Shown piece by piece: positions 34,464 to 46,800 of a DNA stretch of 64,000 nucleotides (positions are counted from its first letter, which is position 1; every line of letters begins with the position of its first letter). The notes beneath the pieces were generated by a model. It had not been told where the DNA came from and searched no databases. It saw only the letters and a program-made list of their open reading frames with translations. The stretch covers positions 89,672-153,671 of the forward strand of contig CAINDG010000013.1 of the NCBI GenBank assembly GCA_903847315.1, in the 5' to 3' direction. The position numbers and the translations under genes are program-made. This DNA is from an uncultured Planctomycetota bacterium. GTDB taxonomy: Bacteria > Planctomycetota > Phycisphaerae > Sedimentisphaerales > UBA12454.

Positions 34464-37400
34464 TTATTGTCGCTTTAGCAGAATAATATAATCAGCAATC
34501 GTTTTCCTGATTTGCGTAAACACCTCATAGTCATTGGAATCATGGGGGACAGAAATGTCCTTCAGTATCGACTTGTAATAACCAAGTTCATCAGCGCTTC
34601 CTACATAATGACTATAGTGGTTCGGGTCTATCGCTGATTTGAGTTGAGCGAGATAATTGTTAGCGTCAGTTACGTTCGAGTCATTCCAATCGGCGGTGGC
34701 AAGAATATTTTTCAAGGTAGCGATATACTTCGCGTCCTTTATGCCCTCACGAATCCCTTCTATACCGCCGATTGTCGGCAGTAATTTCCCGCTCCATGTC
34801 GGATATGCATACATAAAATCTGGAGACACAGAGGGCAAGTCAGCCATTGGGTCTGAATCAAAATCATTGTAAGTATCATTTGTCCCAAAACCAAATTTAT
34901 AATCAAAAACGATTTTTGCATCAGTTGCAAAGGCAAATAACCCATGTAAAAATCTGTTATACACTGGATTACGTATTTGTGAATAATGGGTGGTGTAATA
35001 GCCGAGATGACCATGATAATTCGGGTCTTGATGTCTTTTATAGCCTATGCCTTGATGATCGCCTGAGAGCGTCCATATCTTATAATCAACCAAGTTGGTC
35101 AGCGGCGGTATATTACCATCAGGTGTATTAATGTCGTAAATACCATGCGGACAGTTCTCATCACAATTAGTATAATATGTTACTGCAGTCTCTGGTACAT
35201 AATTTGGTTCATTGATATCAGGATGCACATAATTTGAATCTTTAATTATGTTGGCCAAACGGTCGGCAATAATTCTCCAACATGCATTACTACTTGGTTC
35301 ATCGACGAGGAAGAAAATAAATTTAACATTATATTTGCGGCCCATTTTAATATATTCTTCAACCAATTTCCCAAATGGAGTTGCAAAATCAGGGTCGCTA
35401 AGATGATCATATAAGTTTACATCGAATATACTAAGCGTTGAGTGCGTAACTATCTGGTATATTGGATAAACAGCATACCACTCATCCAGCCAAAGCATAA
35501 CTGTGTTTTTTACAAATCCTTTTGCTATTGCTCTGATGAAACTCTTTTCAAAATCGTTAGTATCAAAGACAACATTGTGTGAATTATTCGGATATTCACT
35601 GATACCAATGCGGCTGATTAAACCCTCACAGCTAATAAACGGATCAAAACCTGTTTCGGCGACGGCGCCATACATTACCTCTTTGTTGCTTGACAGGTAC
35701 TCGTTTATAACTACTGGATAGGAACATTTGGGCGAATCAAGTGTGAAATTATAAATATTAACATCGATTGGAACGTGTACATCAGGCTCTCCGTTTCTTT
35801 TGATAGTAACTTGGCCTTTATACAAACCGGCTGCCAGGTTAGGATCTTTATGTGGTATATGAATTTTCAGCCAGATACTTTCCGAAGTATTAGGTTCGAC
35901 TGATAAGCTATTAAATTCTTCGATACGGTCTGGAAGCAAAGCATAGCTGTATATAGACAAAAAGTCGACGAGTCGTTTCTCGTCATAAATCACATGGTAA
36001 GCCGTTATATTGGAATTCGTAATAACTGAATTGCCATTAGTAAGATTGGATGTGGTAATACTTAAATTAGATATTCCATTTTTTGAATAAATGGAAAAAC
36101 TCACAGGTTCGACTTCACCCCAGGCGCTAAAGGTACTTATTTTGTTTGGCTCATTAATATCTGGTTTTGTGTGTTGATAGACAGGCTTCATAATATCACG
36201 AACAAAAACCACCAGGTTTGAATCCGTATAACTGGGATTGCTCGGATTGTTCGCCGGCATTTCAATTTCGTAAAAACCTCTCATTTCTTTTTGTTTTCTT
36301 GTTAATGCCTCGTAGTCTGCCTGTGAAATTGCCCTTAAGCTGATATAGTTGATTGAAATTCCACCTGAACCTCCTGGCGAATATATCTTTATGGTAAACT
36401 TACCATCAATTGCCCGCAGAAGCTGAAAATCACTTTTTTGGAAGGCATATTGGATGTATTTCCATTTGCCGTCTTTGCAGTCGCCGAGATGAGCGATAAA
36501 ATAATCCCGGTCATTGGGATCTGTAATTCCATAGTTAGGGTCTGGGTTTATATGTCCTATCTTCGATCTTATGGAAAAACCTGATCCAATATTAGCACCG
36601 TCGTTCGCGAACGTATCTTTATACATTATTTCTAAAAGCATAGGTGTCAACGGCAGGCCATTTGCGTCATTGGGAGCAACATTGAAAGCCGGAAATTCTA
36701 TGACCATAGTTCTGTCTCCGATAGTTGTCCGGTAGGAAATGTTTTCATCATTGGAATCAGTCTGTGGCGTTCCCATTGCTCCATTAATATCATTCCAGTG
36801 ATAACCTGTGCTGGCATAAAAACCGGAGTAACCGTTTATCCAATCAGTATTTATTTCTGTGCCTCCGAAATTCACTGTCTCTGCCACGTTAGGTTTATTT
36901 TCAATACCATATGGCGGCAGATAATCTATTTCTTCAACCAAACTAAAATCGTCCCACCATGCCGTACCTGAACATACAGCGGGGCTATAAAATGTGACGT
37001 TAAGATTCTTTGTATTCTTATTTCTTATTGCTCTAAGGCCGCCATAAGGTGTCCACGGTACTAATCCCGGCGACTGAATTTCCCAGCCGTAGTTTGATAA
37101 AACAGTACCATTCGCATCCAACTCAAACCAGTAAACATCGCTCCTGTTTATACGAGATTGACATTTTGTCCAGCAGTTGAGTTTATAACTATGGCCAAAC
37201 GTAACGGGAATCGGCTCTGTAAACCCCAAATTCCAGTTGTTAACATTACCAATAAATTTCCATGAATGACTTCCGCTGTGTGTTTCACTGGTATCTATCG
37301 AGGCTGAATACACTTGTGCTTTTAGCCAGTGCAACGGCGTGCCTTGGGCATCGGTTCCATCCTCAAAATCGGGATTCTTTATAAGATTGATATTGTGTAG

Positions 37401-40181
37401 ATTGAATTCGTCTGCCCCAATATCCACACGGCAGTTTACATATTTTTCATTGGCAACTCTGTTTTCATCATCAATATCCGTTTGATTGGAATATGTACCA
37501 TTAGCATCGCCTCTGTTGATACATGGCGAATTCCAGGTAAGATGAAAATCGTTGGCATTAAAATTATAAAAATATGGATAACTACTGATATTTCCAGTGT
37601 CGCTGTCGCCATCCTGGATACTGCTATATGTTGCATTACAATCAGCCAAATCATCGCTATTATCCCAAATGATACAGTTTTTAATTGTCGGAGCCAAACC
37701 GCCGGAAATAACTTGTATGCCGTAATTGGTGTTTTTAACAATGGTATTGTTTGTAATTGCTGCCGAGGATGAGCTTCCATTTCCGCAGGTTATTCCAGCG
37801 TTATTGGAATATATCAAGTTATTCTTAATGTCAGGGGTGGAACTGTTTATATAGTTAATACCGGAATTGGTATTGCTGAAAATTTTATTATTTTTCAAAA
37901 CAGCCCCGCTTGAAGAGGCATAAACGCCGGTGCTGTTGTTTTTAATAATGCATCTTTCAATTGTTGGGGTAGCACTGTTGCAGTATATACCGTATGTATT
38001 GCTGCCTTTGATTGTAAAGCCTCTTAATACTGCGTTGGCATCTACTGTAACCGCGATACCTGAGCTATTGGCATCGATGATTGTGGTTTCTACAATAGCC
38101 CAATTATTAGGGTCAGTGCTTCTTAAGGTAATTGCTTTGCCTTTAAAGTTTATATTTTCATAATAAGTGCCGGGATAAACGACTAACTCATTGTTGCTCG
38201 CAGCTTCATCGATTGCGGCCTGAACTGCCATATACCATTTATTCTGTGTAACGTTATGAACACTATAAATAATTTCGTCGGCTCCCATATCAAATCTGCC
38301 GCCTTGATAACGTGCGGTATTGTCAATATCCATCTCACCCAAACCTGTCGTGTTTGGATCGCCTGCATTTATACAAGGTGAATTTGAACTAAGATGGAAA
38401 TCATTTATACCTGCGTTCACAAAACACGGGTCGGAACTGATGTTGCCGGTTCCGCTGTCGCCGTCCTGAATACAGCTATATGTTGCAGTACAATTAAGCA
38501 AATCATCATTGTTATTCCAGACAATACAGTTGCTTATCGAATACGAACCGCCCGTGCCGCTCAATTTCTTTATGCCATTGACGGTGTTATTTACTATCGT
38601 ATTGTTTCTAATTACTATTGCGCCTGAACTATTAAAATAAATTCCATATTTCTGATTATATATTAAATTATTTTTTATCGATGGAATAGCGGTAATACTG
38701 CATATTCCATAATTATTATTATCGCTTATTATATTATTGGTAATAGTCGGATGACATAAGCTGCCGCCGCAATATATTCCTCTATCAGAATGATTTTTAA
38801 TAATACATCTTTTAATTGTCGGGCTAGTGTTGACATAACAATATATGCCATAGCTGCCTCGTTGGATTGTAAAGCCTTTTAATACAGTGTTGGCATTTTC
38901 ACTGTTACTAAACAGAACTGGATAACTAATGCTGTTGTTGCCGTCTATGATTGTGTTTTCGACTACATTCCAATTATTAGGGTCGGTACTGGTTAAGGTG
39001 ATTGCCTTGCCGTTAAAATTAACTCCTTCATGATAAGTACCGGGATAAACGATTATCTCGTTGTTGCTCGCAGCTTCATCGATTGCGGCCTGAACTGCCA
39101 TATACCATTTATTCTGTGTAACGTTATGCACATTATAAATCTTTTCATCGGCTCCCATATCAAATCTGCCGCCTTGATAACGTGCGGTATTGTCAATATC
39201 CATCTCGCCCAAACCTGTCGTGTTTGGATCGCCTGCATTTATACAAGGTGAATTTGAACTAAGATGGAAATCATTTATACCTGCGTTCACAAAACACGGG
39301 TCAGAACTAATATTGCCTGTACCGGTATAACCGCCCTGAACACAGCAATATGTTACAGTAGGACTTGAAGAATATTTTGAAATTTCTCCACCTGTATTCG
39401 ACCATAAAATACAATTTGTTATCTTTGGATTTGAGCTACTAATATATATACCGCCGCCGACACTGGTCGAATTATTTGCTATTGTACAATTAATTATATT
39501 TGCGTCTGCGCCACTGCAATAAATACCGCCGCCATTATAATATCCACTTGAATTTCGCGTAATGATGCAATTTGTTATTTGAGGTTTACTATTCGCTATC
39601 ATTATGCCGCTGCCATCACAATAAGTTATATTATGAGTAATAATACAATTGTGTATCTTTGGAGCCCCACCAAAGCATGCAATTCCTCCGCCGCCATCAC
39701 AATCTGCATCGTTATCTTTAATTACGCAGTTACGGATTTCAGGGTTGCTTCCAGAGCAGAAAATTCCGCCGCCCGCATAATAGTCTTCTCCACCTCCATA
39801 TCCATGTTGTATGGTAAAACCTGAGATTACAGAAGTTTGACCTTCTGAATTGCCAAACTTTACAACACTTGTGGAATTACTGCCGTCGATAATTGTTTCT
39901 TCTACAATAGTCCAATTATTTGGGTCAGTGCTTCTTAAGGTAATTGCTTTACCGTTAAAGTCGATGTTTTCATAATATGTACCCTCGTTAACTTCAATAG
40001 TATCTCCATTGGCTGACGTATCGATGCCTTTGTTAATAGTCTTAAAAGCGGTTGCCCAACTTGTGCCGGAATTTGAGTCATTGCCGTCAGGGTCAATATA
40101 ATAAGTTGTAGCAAAAGCTGCAGAAGAGATTGAGATAAGAATTGAAAAAATAATCCCAACAATCCATTTGTGTGTTTTCAT
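34464..40181 (-). CDS. Large secreted protein: parallel beta-helix repeats, carbohydrate-binding-like region and DUF4091-like C-terminus
   Basis: 1905 aa; signal peptide; YYIDPDGNDSNSGTSWATAFKTINKGIDTSANGDTIEVNEGTYYENIDFNGKAITL; many IxNCIIxxN beta-helix turns; C-terminal 'GGIEGIREGIKDAKYIATLKNIL'. Confidence 0.8.
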   Translation of the reverse strand: MKTHKWIVGIIFSILISISSAAFATTYYIDPDGNDSNSGTSWATAFKTINKGIDTSANGDTIEVNEGTYYENIDFNGKAITLRSTDPNNWTIVEETIIDGSNSTSVVKFGNSEGQTSVISGFTIQHGYGGGEDYYAGGGIFCSGSNPEIRNCVIKDNDADCDGGGGIACFGGAPKIHNCIITHNITYCDGSGIMIANSKPQITNCIITRNSSGYYNGGGIYCSGADANIINCTIANNSTSVGGGIYISSSNPKITNCILWSNTGGEISKYSSSPTVTYCCVQGGYTGTGNISSDPCFVNAGINDFHLSSNSPCINAGDPNTTGLGEMDIDNTARYQGGRFDMGADEKIYNVHNVTQNKWYMAVQAAIDEAASNNEIIVYPGTYHEGVNFNGKAITLTSTDPNNWNVVENTIIDGNNSISYPVLFSNSENANTVLKGFTIQRGSYGIYCYVNTSPTIKRCIIKNHSDRGIYCGGSLCHPTITNNIISDNNNYGICSITAIPSIKNNLIYNQKYGIYFNSSGAIVIRNNTIVNNTVNGIKKLSGTGGSYSISNCIVWNNNDDLLNCTATYSCIQDGDSGTGNISSDPCFVNAGINDFHLSSNSPCINAGDPNTTGLGEMDIDNTARYQGGRFDMGADEIIYSVHNVTQNKWYMAVQAAIDEAASNNELVVYPGTYYENINFKGKAITLRSTDPNNWAIVETTIIDANSSGIAVTVDANAVLRGFTIKGSNTYGIYCNSATPTIERCIIKNNSTGVYASSSGAVLKNNKIFSNTNSGINYINSSTPDIKNNLIYSNNAGITCGNGSSSSAAITNNTIVKNTNYGIQVISGGLAPTIKNCIIWDNSDDLADCNATYSSIQDGDSDTGNISSYPYFYNFNANDFHLTWNSPCINRGDANGTYSNQTDIDDENRVANEKYVNCRVDIGADEFNLHNINLIKNPDFEDGTDAQGTPLHWLKAQVYSASIDTSETHSGSHSWKFIGNVNNWNLGFTEPIPVTFGHSYKLNCWTKCQSRINRSDVYWFELDANGTVLSNYGWEIQSPGLVPWTPYGGLRAIRNKNTKNLNVTFYSPAVCSGTAWWDDFSLVEEIDYLPPYGIENKPNVAETVNFGGTEINTDWINGYSGFYASTGYHWNDINGAMGTPQTDSNDENISYRTTIGDRTMVIEFPAFNVAPNDANGLPLTPMLLEIMYKDTFANDGANIGSGFSIRSKIGHINPDPNYGITDPNDRDYFIAHLGDCKDGKWKYIQYAFQKSDFQLLRAIDGKFTIKIYSPGGSGGISINYISLRAISQADYEALTRKQKEMRGFYEIEMPANNPSNPSYTDSNLVVFVRDIMKPVYQHTKPDINEPNKISTFSAWGEVEPVSFSIYSKNGISNLSITTSNLTNGNSVITNSNITAYHVIYDEKRLVDFLSIYSYALLPDRIEEFNSLSVEPNTSESIWLKIHIPHKDPNLAAGLYKGQVTIKRNGEPDVHVPIDVNIYNFTLDSPKCSYPVVINEYLSSNKEVMYGAVAETGFDPFISCEGLISRIGISEYPNNSHNVVFDTNDFEKSFIRAIAKGFVKNTVMLWLDEWYAVYPIYQIVTHSTLSIFDVNLYDHLSDPDFATPFGKLVEEYIKMGRKYNVKFIFFLVDEPSSNACWRIIADRLANIIKDSNYVHPDINEPNYVPETAVTYYTNCDENCPHGIYDINTPDGNIPPLTNLVDYKIWTLSGDHQGIGYKRHQDPNYHGHLGYYTTHYSQIRNPVYNRFLHGLFAFATDAKIVFDYKFGFGTNDTYNDFDSDPMADLPSVSPDFMYAYPTWSGKLLPTIGGIEGIREGIKDAKYIATLKNILATADWNDSNVTDANNYLAQLKSAIDPNHYSHYVGSADELGYYKSILKDISVPHDSNDYEVFTQIRKTIADYIILLKRQ
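38160..38450. repeat. Internal near-identical direct repeat copy (pairs with 39030-39320)
   Basis: Long shared stretches such as gctcgcagcttcatcgattgcggcctgaactgccatataccatttattctgtgtaacgttatg and tcgcctgcatttatacaaggtgaatttgaactaagatggaaatcatttatacctgcgttcacaaaacacgggtc. Confidence 0.9.
39030..39320. repeat. Internal near-identical direct repeat copy (pairs with 38160-38450)
   Basis: Direct comparison with 38160-38450. Confidence 0.9.
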
Positions 40182-42023: not shown

Positions 42024-42638
42024 GTGCAAATAGTGGCAAGAAGCTTTGTAAGAAAACAGCGAATCCTTTTGAGCAGATTCTTTGCTGTTGCGATTATCGT
42101 CTTAATAATAATTTCCAAAAGCCGATGGGAAAATGGCCTGGTGGGGCCGTTTCTGTTCATGATGGGAGCTATTTTAATAGGTGTCGCGACGGTCGGCAGG
42201 CTTTGGTGCTCGCTTTATATCTCAGGATATAAAAGCGGAACTCTTATAACGACTGGGCCTTATTCGCTGTGCAGGAACCCGCTGTATTTTTTCAGCTTCT
42301 TAGGGGCGATAGGCATCGGCCTGGCCACTGAAACGCTCACGATAACCGCCTGTATCGTTCTTGCCTTTGCTTTTTATTATCCAATGGTGATAAAATCAGA
42401 GCAGAAGAAACTGGCTGATATTCACAAAGAGACATTCAGCGATTATTGCAAAACAATACCTGCTTTTTTCCCGTCCCTGAAATTGTTTACCGAGCCGGAA
42501 GATTATACCGTAAAGCCGAAGATTTTCAGAAAGACTTTGTTCGAGGTATTGTGGTTTGTCTGGATGCTCGGCATTATTGAACTTAAAGAGGCGTTTGAAC
42601 AGGCAGGAATGCTACCGACATACTTTAAAATGTTTTAA
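42024..42638 (+). CDS. Isoprenylcysteine/phospholipid methyltransferase-like membrane protein
   Basis: LWCSLYISGYKSGTLITTGPYSLCRNPLYFFSFLGAIGIGLATET typical of ICMT/PEMT; GTG start at 42024 or 42033. Confidence 0.8.
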   Translation: MQIVARSFVRKQRILLSRFFAVAIIVLIIISKSRWENGLVGPFLFMMGAILIGVATVGRLWCSLYISGYKSGTLITTGPYSLCRNPLYFFSFLGAIGIGLATETLTITACIVLAFAFYYPMVIKSEQKKLADIHKETFSDYCKTIPAFFPSLKLFTEPEDYTVKPKIFRKTLFEVLWFVWMLGIIELKEAFEQAGMLPTYFKMF

Positions 42639-42745: not shown

Positions 42746-43576
42746 ATGGAAACGACAAAAATAGCGGTTTTTAAAGGCAAAGAGATAAAAAAAACGATTC
42801 ATAAGGATGAATGGTGGTTTGTTATCGTTGATGTGGTTGCTGCTTTGACAGATTCAAAGCAGCCGGACGGCTATATTAAAGATATGCGAAGGCGGGATAG
42901 TGAACTGGCCAAAGGGTGGGGGCAAATTGCCACCCCCCTTGTTATCGAGACGGAAGGCGGACCTCAGAAAGTGAATTGTGCCAATACTGAAGGCATTTTT
43001 CGCATAATCCAGTCAATTCCATCTTCTAAAGCAGAGCCTTTTAAGCGATGGCTGGCAAAGGTGGGATACGAACGCATCCAGGAAATCGAAGACCCGGAAT
43101 TGGCAACGAAAAGGACACGGGCGATATACAAGGCCAAGGGATATTCCGATAACTGGATAGAAAAACGAATGCGAGGCATCGCCGTTCGAGAAGAACTGAC
43201 CGACGAATGGAAGAATCGTGACGTTAAAGAAGAATCGGAATACGCCATCCTCACCGCCGAAATATCAAAGGCGGCCTTTGGTTTAACGCCGAGCGAATAC
43301 AAGAAGCTCAAAGGGCTTGACCGGGAAAATTTGCGCGACCATATGACGGACCTCGAATTGATTTTTTCTATGTTAGGCGAGGCGGCCACAACAGAAATAA
43401 CCAGAAAACGCGATGCTCTGGGATTTGTTGAAAATAAACAGGCGGCTGCAGAAGGAGGAGGCATTGCGGGAGATGCTCGCAAAGCCCTTGAAACCAAGAC
43501 GCGAAAAAGAATAGTTTCGAGACAAAACTATCTTAATCAGCCCCAGGACAAAAAGCTATTAAAAGGCGGTAAATAA
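42746..43576 (+). CDS. BRO-N/antirepressor domain (DinD-like) protein
   Basis: IAVFKGKEIKKTIHKDEWWFVIVDVVAALTDSKQPDGYIKDMRRRDSELAKGW; 'TKRTRAIYKAKGYSDNWIEKRMRGIAVREELTDEW'. Confidence 0.85.
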   Translation: METTKIAVFKGKEIKKTIHKDEWWFVIVDVVAALTDSKQPDGYIKDMRRRDSELAKGWGQIATPLVIETEGGPQKVNCANTEGIFRIIQSIPSSKAEPFKRWLAKVGYERIQEIEDPELATKRTRAIYKAKGYSDNWIEKRMRGIAVREELTDEWKNRDVKEESEYAILTAEISKAAFGLTPSEYKKLKGLDRENLRDHMTDLELIFSMLGEAATTEITRKRDALGFVENKQAAAEGGGIAGDARKALETKTRKRIVSRQNYLNQPQDKKLLKGGK

Positions 43577-43745
43577 GGCAGGCTTGCTCCCAACGTTTTT
43601 TAAAATGTTTTAATAAACCAAAAGCAACCGCGGATTGCGCGGATGACGCGGATTAAATTTCACCACAGAGGCGCAGAGGATGCAGAGAATTTAAAATATA
43701 AAAAAGGTGACTGTCCCTAATTTCTAATTTCTATTATTGCCAGCA

Positions 43746-43937
43746 TTAACTTTTATATTTCTTAGGATTTAGTATTTGACTTAATCTACCTTCTGAAATA
43801 CCTAATGCCTTAGCTATATCTTTTTGCTCTACTCCCATTTTATTTACCAACAAAATCATTAACATTTTCAAATATGTAATGTCTTGTTCCCAATCCTTTT
43901 TTCCATCACTCTTGATAGAACTTCCTTTTTTTGCCAT
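43746..43937 (-). CDS. Small helix-turn-helix protein
   Basis: DITYLKMLMILLVNKMGVEQKDIAKALGISEGRLSQILNPKKYK: HTH pattern. Confidence 0.7.
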   Translation of the reverse strand: MAKKGSSIKSDGKKDWEQDITYLKMLMILLVNKMGVEQKDIAKALGISEGRLSQILNPKKYKS

Positions 43938-43938
43938 C

Positions 43939-44136
43939 TTACTGATCCTTATATTTTTTTATTTTTCTAATAGGTAACATACGGCTAACGTTTGCCGGAT
44001 CCATTTGCAATGCAAGAGATAACTCCGATAAGGATACACCTGTTTTAATTAAAAATACCATTAAAAGCCTTTTGATGGTATTTAAATCTCCTTCAATTGT
44101 TGGTTGGATTGTGTTTTTAGTATTCTTTTTTGCCAT
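43939..44136 (-). CDS. Small helix-turn-helix protein
   Basis: DLNTIKRLLMVFLIKTGVSLSELSLALQMDPANVSRMLPIRKIKKY: same pattern as neighbours. Confidence 0.7.
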   Translation of the reverse strand: MAKKNTKNTIQPTIEGDLNTIKRLLMVFLIKTGVSLSELSLALQMDPANVSRMLPIRKIKKYKDQ

Positions 44137-44161
44137 AATTTATTCCTTTCTATTTTTTAAT

Positions 44162-45052
44162 TTAGCTTAATTTAAAATATTTTCTATACGCTTGAACTAA
44201 TCTGTTCAAATCATCACCATCTATAACACAGTAATAAATGGTAACGCCGCTAATAGCCTTTGCAATAGCAAATGCCGCTAATTGTTCTGTGATGCTTTCG
44301 TCAACCTTTCCATGATACACAACAAAAAACATTTGTGCGGAAGCTCCAAACAAACGAGAGATTTGGTCACCATTTTTCCCCATCATTTTAGGGGTAAGTG
44401 TACCCTTCGTGGCCTTACCCTTTAACGCAAATGCCGCAAACATGCGTTTTCCCTTGAACTTTATTTTGTTTGTATATAGGTCATTTTTTTCTCCACCCCA
44501 ATCCTTGAAATCGTGAGTTTCGCCCAATATTTTTTTTAATCCAGTTTTTATTTTGTTCTCTGGTACTTTATTAAGACGAATTGAATTATCAACGTTTTTA
44601 ATTTTTCTTGTTTTACTAAATGAATCAATATCATCTACCGTGATTGATTTAAATTTCGGTTTCTTTTCAGGTAAAACATTTACATATGTATTAGTTGAAA
44701 CGCGTGGAGACTGCTTAGTTGGATATTTTGCTGCTTTTTTGGGGCTGTCGAGTATGGCTAACACCCTTTTTTTATGGTGAATGTATACTACTTCTTTTTC
44801 GTATGCAGTTTGCGAACCTTTTTTTGTCTGTTTTATGATTTGATTACCTTGAAGTTTGCCTGCTTCCTGCAGTACCCTGATTTTTTTAAGTCTAGTTTTT
44901 TTTGCAATCTCATCAGCAGTTTTAATTTTCTTTTTGCCGTTATAAATTGCTTCAAATACTTTTCTTCTATCCTTAGACTTTCCAATTACAGTTACCGCAT
45001 GGAGAATATTCTCATTTAAATTTGCTCGGACATCAGTGACATTGGTAGGCAT
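44162..45052 (-). CDS. Predicted wHTH + restriction-endonuclease-like domain protein (function unknown)
   Basis: N-terminal wHTH-like (KVFEAIYNGKKKIKTADEIAKKTRLKKIRVLQEAGKLQGNQIIKQ); C-terminal DFKDWGGEKNDLYTNKIKFKGKRMFAAFALKGKATKGTLTPKMMGKNGDQISRLF, Mrr-like pattern only. Confidence 0.55.
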   Translation of the reverse strand: MPTNVTDVRANLNENILHAVTVIGKSKDRRKVFEAIYNGKKKIKTADEIAKKTRLKKIRVLQEAGKLQGNQIIKQTKKGSQTAYEKEVVYIHHKKRVLAILDSPKKAAKYPTKQSPRVSTNTYVNVLPEKKPKFKSITVDDIDSFSKTRKIKNVDNSIRLNKVPENKIKTGLKKILGETHDFKDWGGEKNDLYTNKIKFKGKRMFAAFALKGKATKGTLTPKMMGKNGDQISRLFGASAQMFFVVYHGKVDESITEQLAAFAIAKAISGVTIYYCVIDGDDLNRLVQAYRKYFKLS

Positions 45053-45056
45053 AATT

Positions 45057-45239
45057 TTATTCTTTATCAGACTTTGTAAGTATTTTTCTGTTTACCCCCT
45101 TCAGAATCTTATTAACAGAACCTGCTGCCATGCCAAGTCGCTTTCCAATCTCCGCTTGTGAAAGTCCTCCGCGCCAGAATTCGATTATGAGCAAATTTTC
45201 TAATAACTGAACAATAGCTTTCAAATCATCATTTGGCAT
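45057..45239 (-). CDS. Small helix-turn-helix protein
   Basis: DLKAIVQLLENLLIIEFWRGGLSQAEIGKRLGMAAGSVNKILKGVNRKIL. Confidence 0.75.
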   Translation of the reverse strand: MPNDDLKAIVQLLENLLIIEFWRGGLSQAEIGKRLGMAAGSVNKILKGVNRKILTKSDKE

Positions 45240-45278
45240 ATAATTATCCCTTTCTATTTTTACACATCTATATTGATA

Positions 45279-45557
45279 TTAACCACACCATTTCCAACCA
45301 TTTGGTTCATACATAGTCTTGTACATTTTTAAATGTTCTTCTTTGTCTATTCTCTGAGGTTCCAACTTTATGAAGCATCGATCTTCCTCAAAATTAATTA
45401 CAATTTCTTCAACCTTGCGGGCTTCTCCCTCAAAAGTCCTATCAATTACTTTTATTCCTAATGATGGCGATATATTAGAGTCGACCTCTTTTTGGAATAT
45501 GCCTATATTTCCTTCATACTCTACACAATAAATTTCAACGTCTAAAATAATTAGCAT
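45279..45557 (-). CDS. Hypothetical protein, first gene of the small-HTH cluster
   Basis: 92 aa ORF in the same orientation as the following four genes; no recognised domain. Confidence 0.55.
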   Translation of the reverse strand: MLIILDVEIYCVEYEGNIGIFQKEVDSNISPSLGIKVIDRTFEGEARKVEEIVINFEEDRCFIKLEPQRIDKEEHLKMYKTMYEPNGWKWCG

Positions 45558-45936
45558 TTTTCTTTTTCCTATGCGAGTTTATAAGCGGTTTATTCGTCGA
45601 GGATGTCTTTTATGGTAAGCACTGTTTCGAGTTTTCTCATCATATTACGACAAATTATAGCCTTAAAGAGGTAAAAAGCAATAATTTTTCAGCCAAACGC
45701 GCAATTAATTTCCTGCGCTTTTGGCTGAAATGAAAAAAATTGCATCCTTTATTGACAAGGGGTTATGAAAAAAACGCAAAAATTTTTGACGAATTTTCGC
45801 AAAAAGCGCGCAAGTTTCCAGTAAGGGTGGAGGCGCTATGTTGGCCATAAGCCAACAAAGTGAAGCGTATCTTGTGAAGCGTATCTCGTAGTTGCGCTTC
45901 ACGCTTCACGTTTCACTCTTCACGAAACGAATCATT

Positions 45937-46515
45937 ATGCAAAAAGCTTATTTACCATTCTACTATCCAACGTTTATCGAAAGCATCGTTGTTTATTTTC
46001 TGCTTCGCTATCGCAAAAAACATTTCGGCTTTGCCTTTCGAAAAATCAAACTTATAGGCGGAGGCTATACAATAGTTGACCCGGACGATTATCAGAAATT
46101 GGCTGGTTATGACTGGCTGTGTTGCGAAAAAGACAAGAGAAATGATTATGCTGTCCGGTTCGAAGGCAAACATCTTATACGTATGCACCGAGTTATTATG
46201 AACGCTCCGTCCGGAACTATCGTTGACCATAAGGATTGTGATGGCCTTAATAATACCAAATCTAATTTGCGTTTCGCTACCAGTGCGGAAAATAACAGGA
46301 ATTGCAGAAAACGAAATAACACTTCCTCAAAATACAAAGGTGTTCGCAGATATAAAAAACGTAATAAATGGGAGGCAACTATAACTTGCAATTACCGGCG
46401 TATGTATTTGGGATACTTCGATAATGAGGAAGATGCGGCAAGGGCTTATGACAAAGCCGCCAAGGTGCATCATGGTAATTTTGCGGTGTTGAACTTTCCT
46501 GAGGATTCGCAAAAG
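45937..46515 (+). CDS. HNH endonuclease with AP2 DNA-binding domain (homing-endonuclease-like); 3' limit uncertain, frame stays open into the ABC ATPase
   Basis: LIRMHRVIMNAPSGTIVDHKDCDGLNNTKSNLRFATSAENNRN (HNH) and SSKYKGVRRYKKRNKWEATITCNYRRMYLGYFDNEEDAARAYDKAAKVHHGNFAVLNFPED (AP2). Confidence 0.85.
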
Positions 46516-46800
46516 GAAGTTTACCCCGCCTGCCCTGTGAAGTGTCGCAACTACTTCATCGGGGTGAGATGTTTACCCCGTGGGATGTTGCAACTATCCC
46601 ATCGGGGCCGCTTCGGCTATCTCATCGGGGCCGTTTTAAATTTCCCGCAGGTCTCGGCGAAGCCTTTGGCGAAGACGGATCCTGACGAGAAAATTCAGGC
46701 CAAAAAGAACCAAATAACGAAATTTCGCGTACTTGACGATATAATTCTGGTTTATATAATCATTTATCTGTATATTTTTATAAGAATTAGCGGAGTTAAT

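Follow-up and report, generated by a model that had tools for sequence, protein, structure and literature searches.

The modular defence systems known so far detect invaders by way of nucleotide cyclases, STAND ATPases or Argonautes, or with single large sensors. The locus described here shares with CBASS/Pycsar, Avs/NACHT and short pAgo systems the combination of a conserved recognition part with exchangeable TIR, SIR2, protease and nuclease effectors, and with CBASS/Pycsar also the CAP12/Pycsar TIR (PF10137) effector class; it differs from all of them in that the array genes examined encode no nucleotide cyclase, STAND ATPase or Argonaute. In BREX and related BrxA/DUF4007 tripartite modules, a published proposal has several HTH and winged-HTH units together making up an extended DNA-binding surface that recognises invaders, these units being joined in larger proteins with ATPase, methyltransferase and PglZ partners (PMC12839542). 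By contrast, the HTH units of our locus are encoded by separate genes, and ATPase, methyltransferase and PglZ are absent from its cassette in the window, by which we mean the whole 64,000-nucleotide stretch of planctomycete DNA that was analysed. Judged by sequence comparison, the genes for 60-, 296-, 65- and 63-aa proteins in this window would represent, with a probability of roughly 0.7, a single copy of a modular anti-invader (conflict) cassette that has spread horizontally. The features of the region are as follows.

42746-46790 (right edge approximate): accessory patch holding the BRO gene, the HTH-array operon and the HNH-AP2 gene
42746-43576, plus strand: BRO-N gene (PADLOC PDC-S13, E 9e-113; phrog_15286, 4e-83)
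43746-43937, minus strand: 63-aa small HTH protein, final gene of the array
43939-44136, minus strand: 65-aa small HTH protein of the 'IKRLLMVFLIKTG...VSRMLPxRKIKK' class
44162-45052, minus strand: 296-aa core protein, a winged helix plus a PD-(D/E)xK-like domain
44165-44656, minus strand: C-terminal nuclease-like domain of the core, residues 133-296
44675-45043, minus strand: winged-helix domain (adaptor) at the N-terminus of the core, approximately residues 4-126
45057-45239, minus strand: 60-aa small HTH protein, first gene of the array, of the class 'LxxLLxIEFWRGGLSQAEIGKRLGMxxGSVNKILKGVxRK'
45279-45557, minus strand: 92-aa ORF (phrog_17183, 2.5e-9)
45687-45730: 17-nt inverted repeat, 94% complementary with a 10-nt spacer, lying upstream of the operon between divergent genes; possibly an operator or a terminator
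about 45937-46560, plus strand: HNH-AP2 homing-like gene of the accessory patch

All five minus-strand ORFs listed by the sequence-only reading are present at the positions it gave. The 60-, 296-, 65- and 63-aa genes follow one another at gaps of 4, 25 and 1 bp, which is operon-like. The 92-aa ORF, which that reading had counted with them, lies 39 bp from the 60-aa gene and is without a homologue in the other array loci, and was thus rejected as part of a conserved module. The operon's two other neighbours were correctly recognized: the BRO-like gene is borne out by its PDC-S13 match, which belongs to a neighbour of the cassette and not to a member, and the HNH-AP2 gene does lie in the same accessory patch. 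No DNA methyltransferase is encoded among the ORFs at 42.7-46.8 kb, as a type II RM system would require, and no nucleotide cyclase in the patch, as CBASS or Pycsar would; reading the ORFs of the sibling arrays also revealed no cyclase. Near the region, a 1905-aa repeat-rich protein (34464-40181, minus strand), probably secreted, was read by eye as having beta-helix-like repeats.

The pattern proposed to be common to the three small proteins is a real one, as HMMs built from any one of them recover the other two. Iterative HMMs seeded with each protein converged on one common set of 87-88 proteins. In the 64-kb window only the three small proteins matched, and none of 1,508 shuffled ORFs did, so chance does not explain the resemblance. 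The family consists mostly of proteins of 55-110 aa, many with basic tails, and includes the types '...IKRLLVLxLLKxG...VSRMxPxxKxKK' and '...IELWRGGLSQxEIxxRLGVxxxTVNxMLKGVSRE' and a longer, sigma-region-4-like type, '...LGTTxNTVxVxLSxxRKKK'. Up to seven such genes occur per locus. Of 87 proteins, 82 find their best match outside their own locus, often in another phylum, indicating that subunit types are kept distinct rather than duplicated locally; recent local duplication was ruled out as the origin of the arrays on the same count. The 60-aa protein shares 66% identity with an HTH protein encoded directly before the core gene of locus L010, and has no second copy in the window's own genome. 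When 24 core-bearing genomes were searched whole with the class-2 (sigma-4-like) profile, 30 of 30 among the matches listed fell in the core locus. By these profile matches the family is near-exclusive to array loci, matches weaker than 1e-7 in the class search having been left out as resembling sigma-factor or generic HTH regions in longer frames; in the phylum search, matches in G315, G411 and G480 (2.7e-8 to 7.3e-8) lie outside the inspected arrays. Pfam, NCBIfam, PADLOC and PHROGs returned generic HTH matches only, for the small proteins and the core alike. The best match of the HTH proteins in PADLOC-DB 2.0 was not significant (E 7e-3). A weak resemblance of the 63-aa protein to mad1 of the MADS system (PADLOC, E 0.029) is likewise not significant, and no other MADS gene was matched in the window operon.

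The 296-aa core protein is composed of two separate domains. Its N-terminus, which had been described as wHTH-like, is indeed an ArsR/MarR/TubR-like winged helix, with Foldseek matches to TubR, CzrA, NolR and MarR-type proteins. The full-length core was modelled by AF2 with a mean pLDDT of 93.6 and a pTM of 0.64, so the arrangement of its domains is less certain, and the C-terminal domain alone with a pLDDT of 95.6 and a pTM of 0.90. Across 55 aligned C-terminal domains, E165, D184-W-G-G-E188, D191, K211-G212, G225 and D229-Q230 are invariant. The predicted topology (helix 165-176, strands 192-199 and 202-211, helix 226-234, strand 241-246) follows the alpha-beta-beta(-beta)-alpha-beta core of PD-(D/E)xK enzymes, where E165 opens the first helix, D191 precedes the next strand, K211 ends the following strand and Q230 lies in the next helix. 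Thus the suggested likeness to Mrr/PD-(D/E)xK nucleases stands for the order of elements, for the placement of E165, D191, K211 and Q230, and for the acidic residue that starts one strand and the lysine that ends the next (D191 and K211, in 55 of 55). It does not stand for the acidic residue two positions before the lysine, which is missing and replaced mostly by A, L, V or G, and by Q in L007 and L058; the invariant E188 or D229 may substitute for it.

Searching the PDB with this domain gave a best E value of 0.08, which is below significance. Restriction-endonuclease-like folds recur in the list, none of them significant, with weak matches to SgrAI, Mus81-Eme1, XPF-ERCC1, EcoT38I and the RNA polymerase subunit Rpb5, whose N-terminal domain has a restriction-endonuclease-like fold. 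A nuclease fold is hence supported by the predicted topology and the conserved residues, although not by a significant structural match. Pfam, NCBIfam and PADLOC hold no family for the C-terminal domain, and Pfam covers it in none of the 55 members. No known non-defence family matches the protein either. Taken with the models, the domain probably works like a PD-(D/E)xK nuclease; we do not file it formally in that superfamily, because the residue at K211-2 is not acidic and the PDB matches are not significant. Some copies need not be active nucleases, as the diverged core of L217 lacks the WGGE motif. Elsewhere in the window's genome, a DEAD/ResIII-type helicase (L002:1492-3411) has an N-terminus remotely like the nuclease-like domain (26%).

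A scan of 85,462 genomes for the C-terminal domain gave 55 loci, and a viral scan gave 3. The full-length architecture of the window was found in 24 scan loci, at 33-63% identity, in at least ten phyla, archaea included. These core loci belong to Planctomycetota, Acidobacteriota, Pseudomonadota, Actinomycetota, Armatimonadota, Bacteroidota, Nitrospirota, Chloroflexota, Verrucomicrobiota, KSB1, a Patescibacteria lineage and Thaumarchaeota; in one of them (L023) the core reading frame is interrupted near its end. Small-HTH genes accompany the core in all 24 (one to five each) and are absent from all 34 loci in which the domain lies outside the window's architecture or is readable only as a fragment (Fisher p = 7.8e-17, at the same threshold in both groups). 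The neighbourhood conservation that the sequence-only reading had proposed as a check on its HTH trio is therefore found throughout, a class-level relative (L003) included. The HTH genes mostly lie directly upstream of the core on the same strand, the nearest one at most 40 bp from the core start or overlapping it in 22 of 24 loci; they are divergent in L015 and 1.2 kb away in L022. The HTH-array effector module proposed here would be marked by at least one small HTH gene beside an effector, and the window has three. The surroundings of most window-type cores are ordinary host genes and not defence islands.

The HTH profiles alone, with no effector as reference, led to 23 new arrays, which were inspected with neighbouring genes called by a simple ORF rule. 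As a raw count, an effector-like gene adjoins the array in 22 of them; in the exception (G534) the contig ends after five HTH genes and one winged-helix gene. Window-type nucleases accompany the arrays of G959, G998 (with a split reading frame), G1104 and G1143. CAP12/Pycsar TIR proteins are found in G228 and G031 (Pfam PF10137, E 2.5e-25 and 7.7e-27) and, by phmmer relatedness, in G249 and G1101; CHAT proteins in G109 (E 6.7e-10) and G802 (E 7e-14); and SIR2 proteins in G533 (SIR2_2, E 6.7e-9) and G1065 (phmmer, 7.9e-68). Further arrays hold other nuclease-like proteins, namely G008 and G1202, which carry an ECKNY-type motif and are mutually related at 1.6e-41, and G905, with an HLIELKML motif and a weak NucS_C match (E 0.005), or HEPN-like proteins with an Rx4H motif (G990, G967, G1189 and G1161); the HEPN and these three nuclease assignments are based on motif or similarity, with no significant Pfam match. 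The Rx4H motif is the signature of HEPN RNases (PMC3710099). In G1055, G1056 and G989 the arrays hold a helical family in which the Rx4H motif is not at its expected place. HEPN-like and helical proteins also occur within arrays that hold a window-type core (L017, L019, L023, L029 and L217), giving two effector-like genes in one array. In other words, the predicted effectors are exchanged beside conserved HTH arrays, and the association of the arrays with effectors is strong on the sequence comparisons made here.

Several proteins were noticed by eye around these arrays. A DUF4062-like protein occurs in an HTH array (G1055; L207:4750-5259); DUF4062 was recently reported as a TIR-like NADase acting in phage defence, Swarozyc (PMC13174449). 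In an archaeal genome (G990, locus L206) a Cas1-like gene is found close to an HTH array that holds a HEPN-like protein.

Effectors can also be exchanged on a single adaptor. The array of L185 (genome G802, taken from the class to which Afipia belongs) has five HTH genes followed by a 346-aa protein. Residues 6-134 of this protein match the winged helix of the window (E 2e-23, by an HMM built without L185), and its C-terminus is CHAT; the nuclease-domain HMM gives no match to it. The same winged helix is thus joined to a nuclease-like domain in the window and to CHAT in L185. Moreover, a stand-alone winged-helix gene, weakly similar to the winged helix of the window, stands before the effector in L133, L137, L149, L186 and L218. 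What appears by eye to be a second adaptor type, unlike that winged helix, is N-terminal, helical and about 70 residues long ('LxxLxxKTGKxxxxVRxxIxxL...VAxIYAxExG'); it was seen in the effectors L134:4567-5430, L136:5282-6145, L207:5625-6326, L209:4849-5583, L211:5664-6362, L212:5695-6414, L206:4154-4999 and L210:5590-6387.

Outside the window's architecture, the nuclease-like domain lies beside an N6/N4 methyltransferase and a UvrD helicase (L036), beside a UvrD helicase (L040, where only the UvrD was examined by search), beside a methyltransferase and a ResIII helicase (L045), beside SIR2 in a locus from the phage collection (L005) and beside DUF4268 (L059). Such neighbours are as expected of a restriction-type or defence nuclease, and from gene content the L036, L040 and L045 operons are possibly undescribed restriction-type systems using this domain. 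Such company, together with the RM genes that adjoin the arrays of L018, L134 and L150, would suit a restriction-like reading of the cassette itself, in which the HTH proteins would supply specificity as exchangeable subunits, with the core cutting DNA that lacks a host mark. We consider this improbable, since the window operon has no methyltransferase and since DNA cleavage is not expected of TIR, SIR2, CHAT or HEPN effectors, so that specificity-guided cleavage could not be the general mechanism.

The modular anti-invader cassette favoured here would consist of a constant part, the array of free-standing small HTH proteins, often with a winged-helix adaptor, and of a variable part, the effector. 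The latter would be, in the window, a PD-(D/E)xK-like nuclease domain joined to the winged helix in one protein, and elsewhere a CAP12-type TIR, SIR2, CHAT protease, HEPN-like RNase or another nuclease. We infer that the HTH proteins and the winged helix assemble on nucleic acid into a sensor or specificity complex, which keeps the effector inactive and, on meeting foreign or infection-altered DNA, frees or directs it. The outcome would be DNA cleavage with the effector of the window, and abortive infection with TIR, SIR2, CHAT or HEPN effectors. TIR, SIR2, CHAT, HEPN and PD-(D/E)xK domains recur in phage-defence systems (PMC10952713), which suggests that the module acts against invaders. The earlier proposal of an anti-phage or mobile-element module finds its strongest support in the company that HTH arrays keep elsewhere with the immune domains TIR, SIR2 and CHAT; both its defence function and its trigger are putative.

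It could be argued that the effector itself detects infection, and that the HTH proteins are only transcriptional regulators silencing the operon until it is needed. All small proteins being HTH proteins, many of them basic-tailed, and the inverted repeat upstream of the window operon would fit this, yet as many as seven HTH proteins in one locus is far above the needs of autoregulation, and the subunit types are kept across phyla while effectors of unrelated folds are exchanged. We find this explanation somewhat unlikely. A toxin-antitoxin or addiction function, where the effector is a toxin neutralised by the HTH proteins and the cassette chiefly secures its own maintenance or the stability of mobile DNA, appears unlikely. 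The small HTH genes do adjoin toxic-type enzymes, and their distribution is patchy, chromosomal and mobile, an integrase-like gene having been seen by eye near L205. Nonetheless, one to seven HTH genes per locus do not make a 1:1 pair, the five arrays with two effector-like genes do not fit one either, and a search of 72,556 plasmids gave no match to the full-length core or to two HTH queries. It is the number and diversity of the HTH subunits that argue against both the regulatory and the toxin-antitoxin explanations.

Regarding mobility, no full-length core was found among 50,697 phage and 72,556 plasmid records, and a phage or plasmid origin was ruled out on these counts. The C-terminal domain only was found on one unannotated contig labelled phage, on two actinobacterial plasmids and, in architectures other than the window's, on three IMG/VR contigs. 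In the core tree, the core of the window clusters with those of Planctomycetota, Acidobacteriota, Actinomycetota and Betaproteobacteria with 100/100 support, apart from other planctomycete copies. In a congeneric genome (G128) the methyltransferase-like gene (42024-42638 in the window) adjoins ABC transporter genes; in the window the patch of BRO gene, HTH array and HNH-AP2 gene sits between them, a difference that may reflect gain or loss, in either direction. HNH-AP2 homologues lie directly upstream of the same ABC transporter genes in relatives, suggesting an insertion hotspot. A patch that varies among relatives and an HNH-AP2 gene that recurs at one site might suggest mere housekeeping of a mobile element, with a regulator and nuclease island controlling or aiding the movement of the patch. 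This seems highly improbable, as elsewhere the HTH-core cassette recurs beside unrelated host genes without the BRO/HNH-AP2 patch.

The sequence-only reading did not recognise the operon as a named system, and PADLOC has no significant model for the core or the HTH proteins; the core matches PDC-M05A (E 3e-4) and Csa3 (E 2e-3) in PADLOC-DB 2.0 through its generic winged helix, neither being significant. The HTH arrays have no Pfam or PADLOC (2023) model and no description in open-access full texts, subscription papers and newer defence catalogues aside, nor did term look-ups in PMC13174449, PMC3710099, PMC8195603, PMC10952713 and PMC12839542 reveal one. From these comparisons the HTH-array cassette looks like an undescribed modular anti-invader system. 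There is perhaps an even chance that it represents an undescribed class of prokaryotic immunity, shared by bacteria and archaea, in which small-HTH arrays serve as a combinatorial nucleic-acid sensor licensing interchangeable effectors.

The loci are small, with four genes in the window, and easily cloned; cultured hosts that carry them include Chryseolinea serpens (L017), Afipia (L020) and Chelativorans (L028). The arrays offer a search handle, the HTH profiles alone having led to an effector-like gene in nearly all of the new loci inspected, and the nuclease-like domain, which has no Pfam family and occurs also in methyltransferase-helicase operons, offers a second one. The constant component of the cassette would seem to be tiny HTH proteins, often several to a locus, whose types stay distinct in different phyla and which are coupled to killing enzymes of unrelated kinds. 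Should the sensor interpretation hold, combinations of minimal HTH proteins that recognise DNA would be a separate trigger of immunity.
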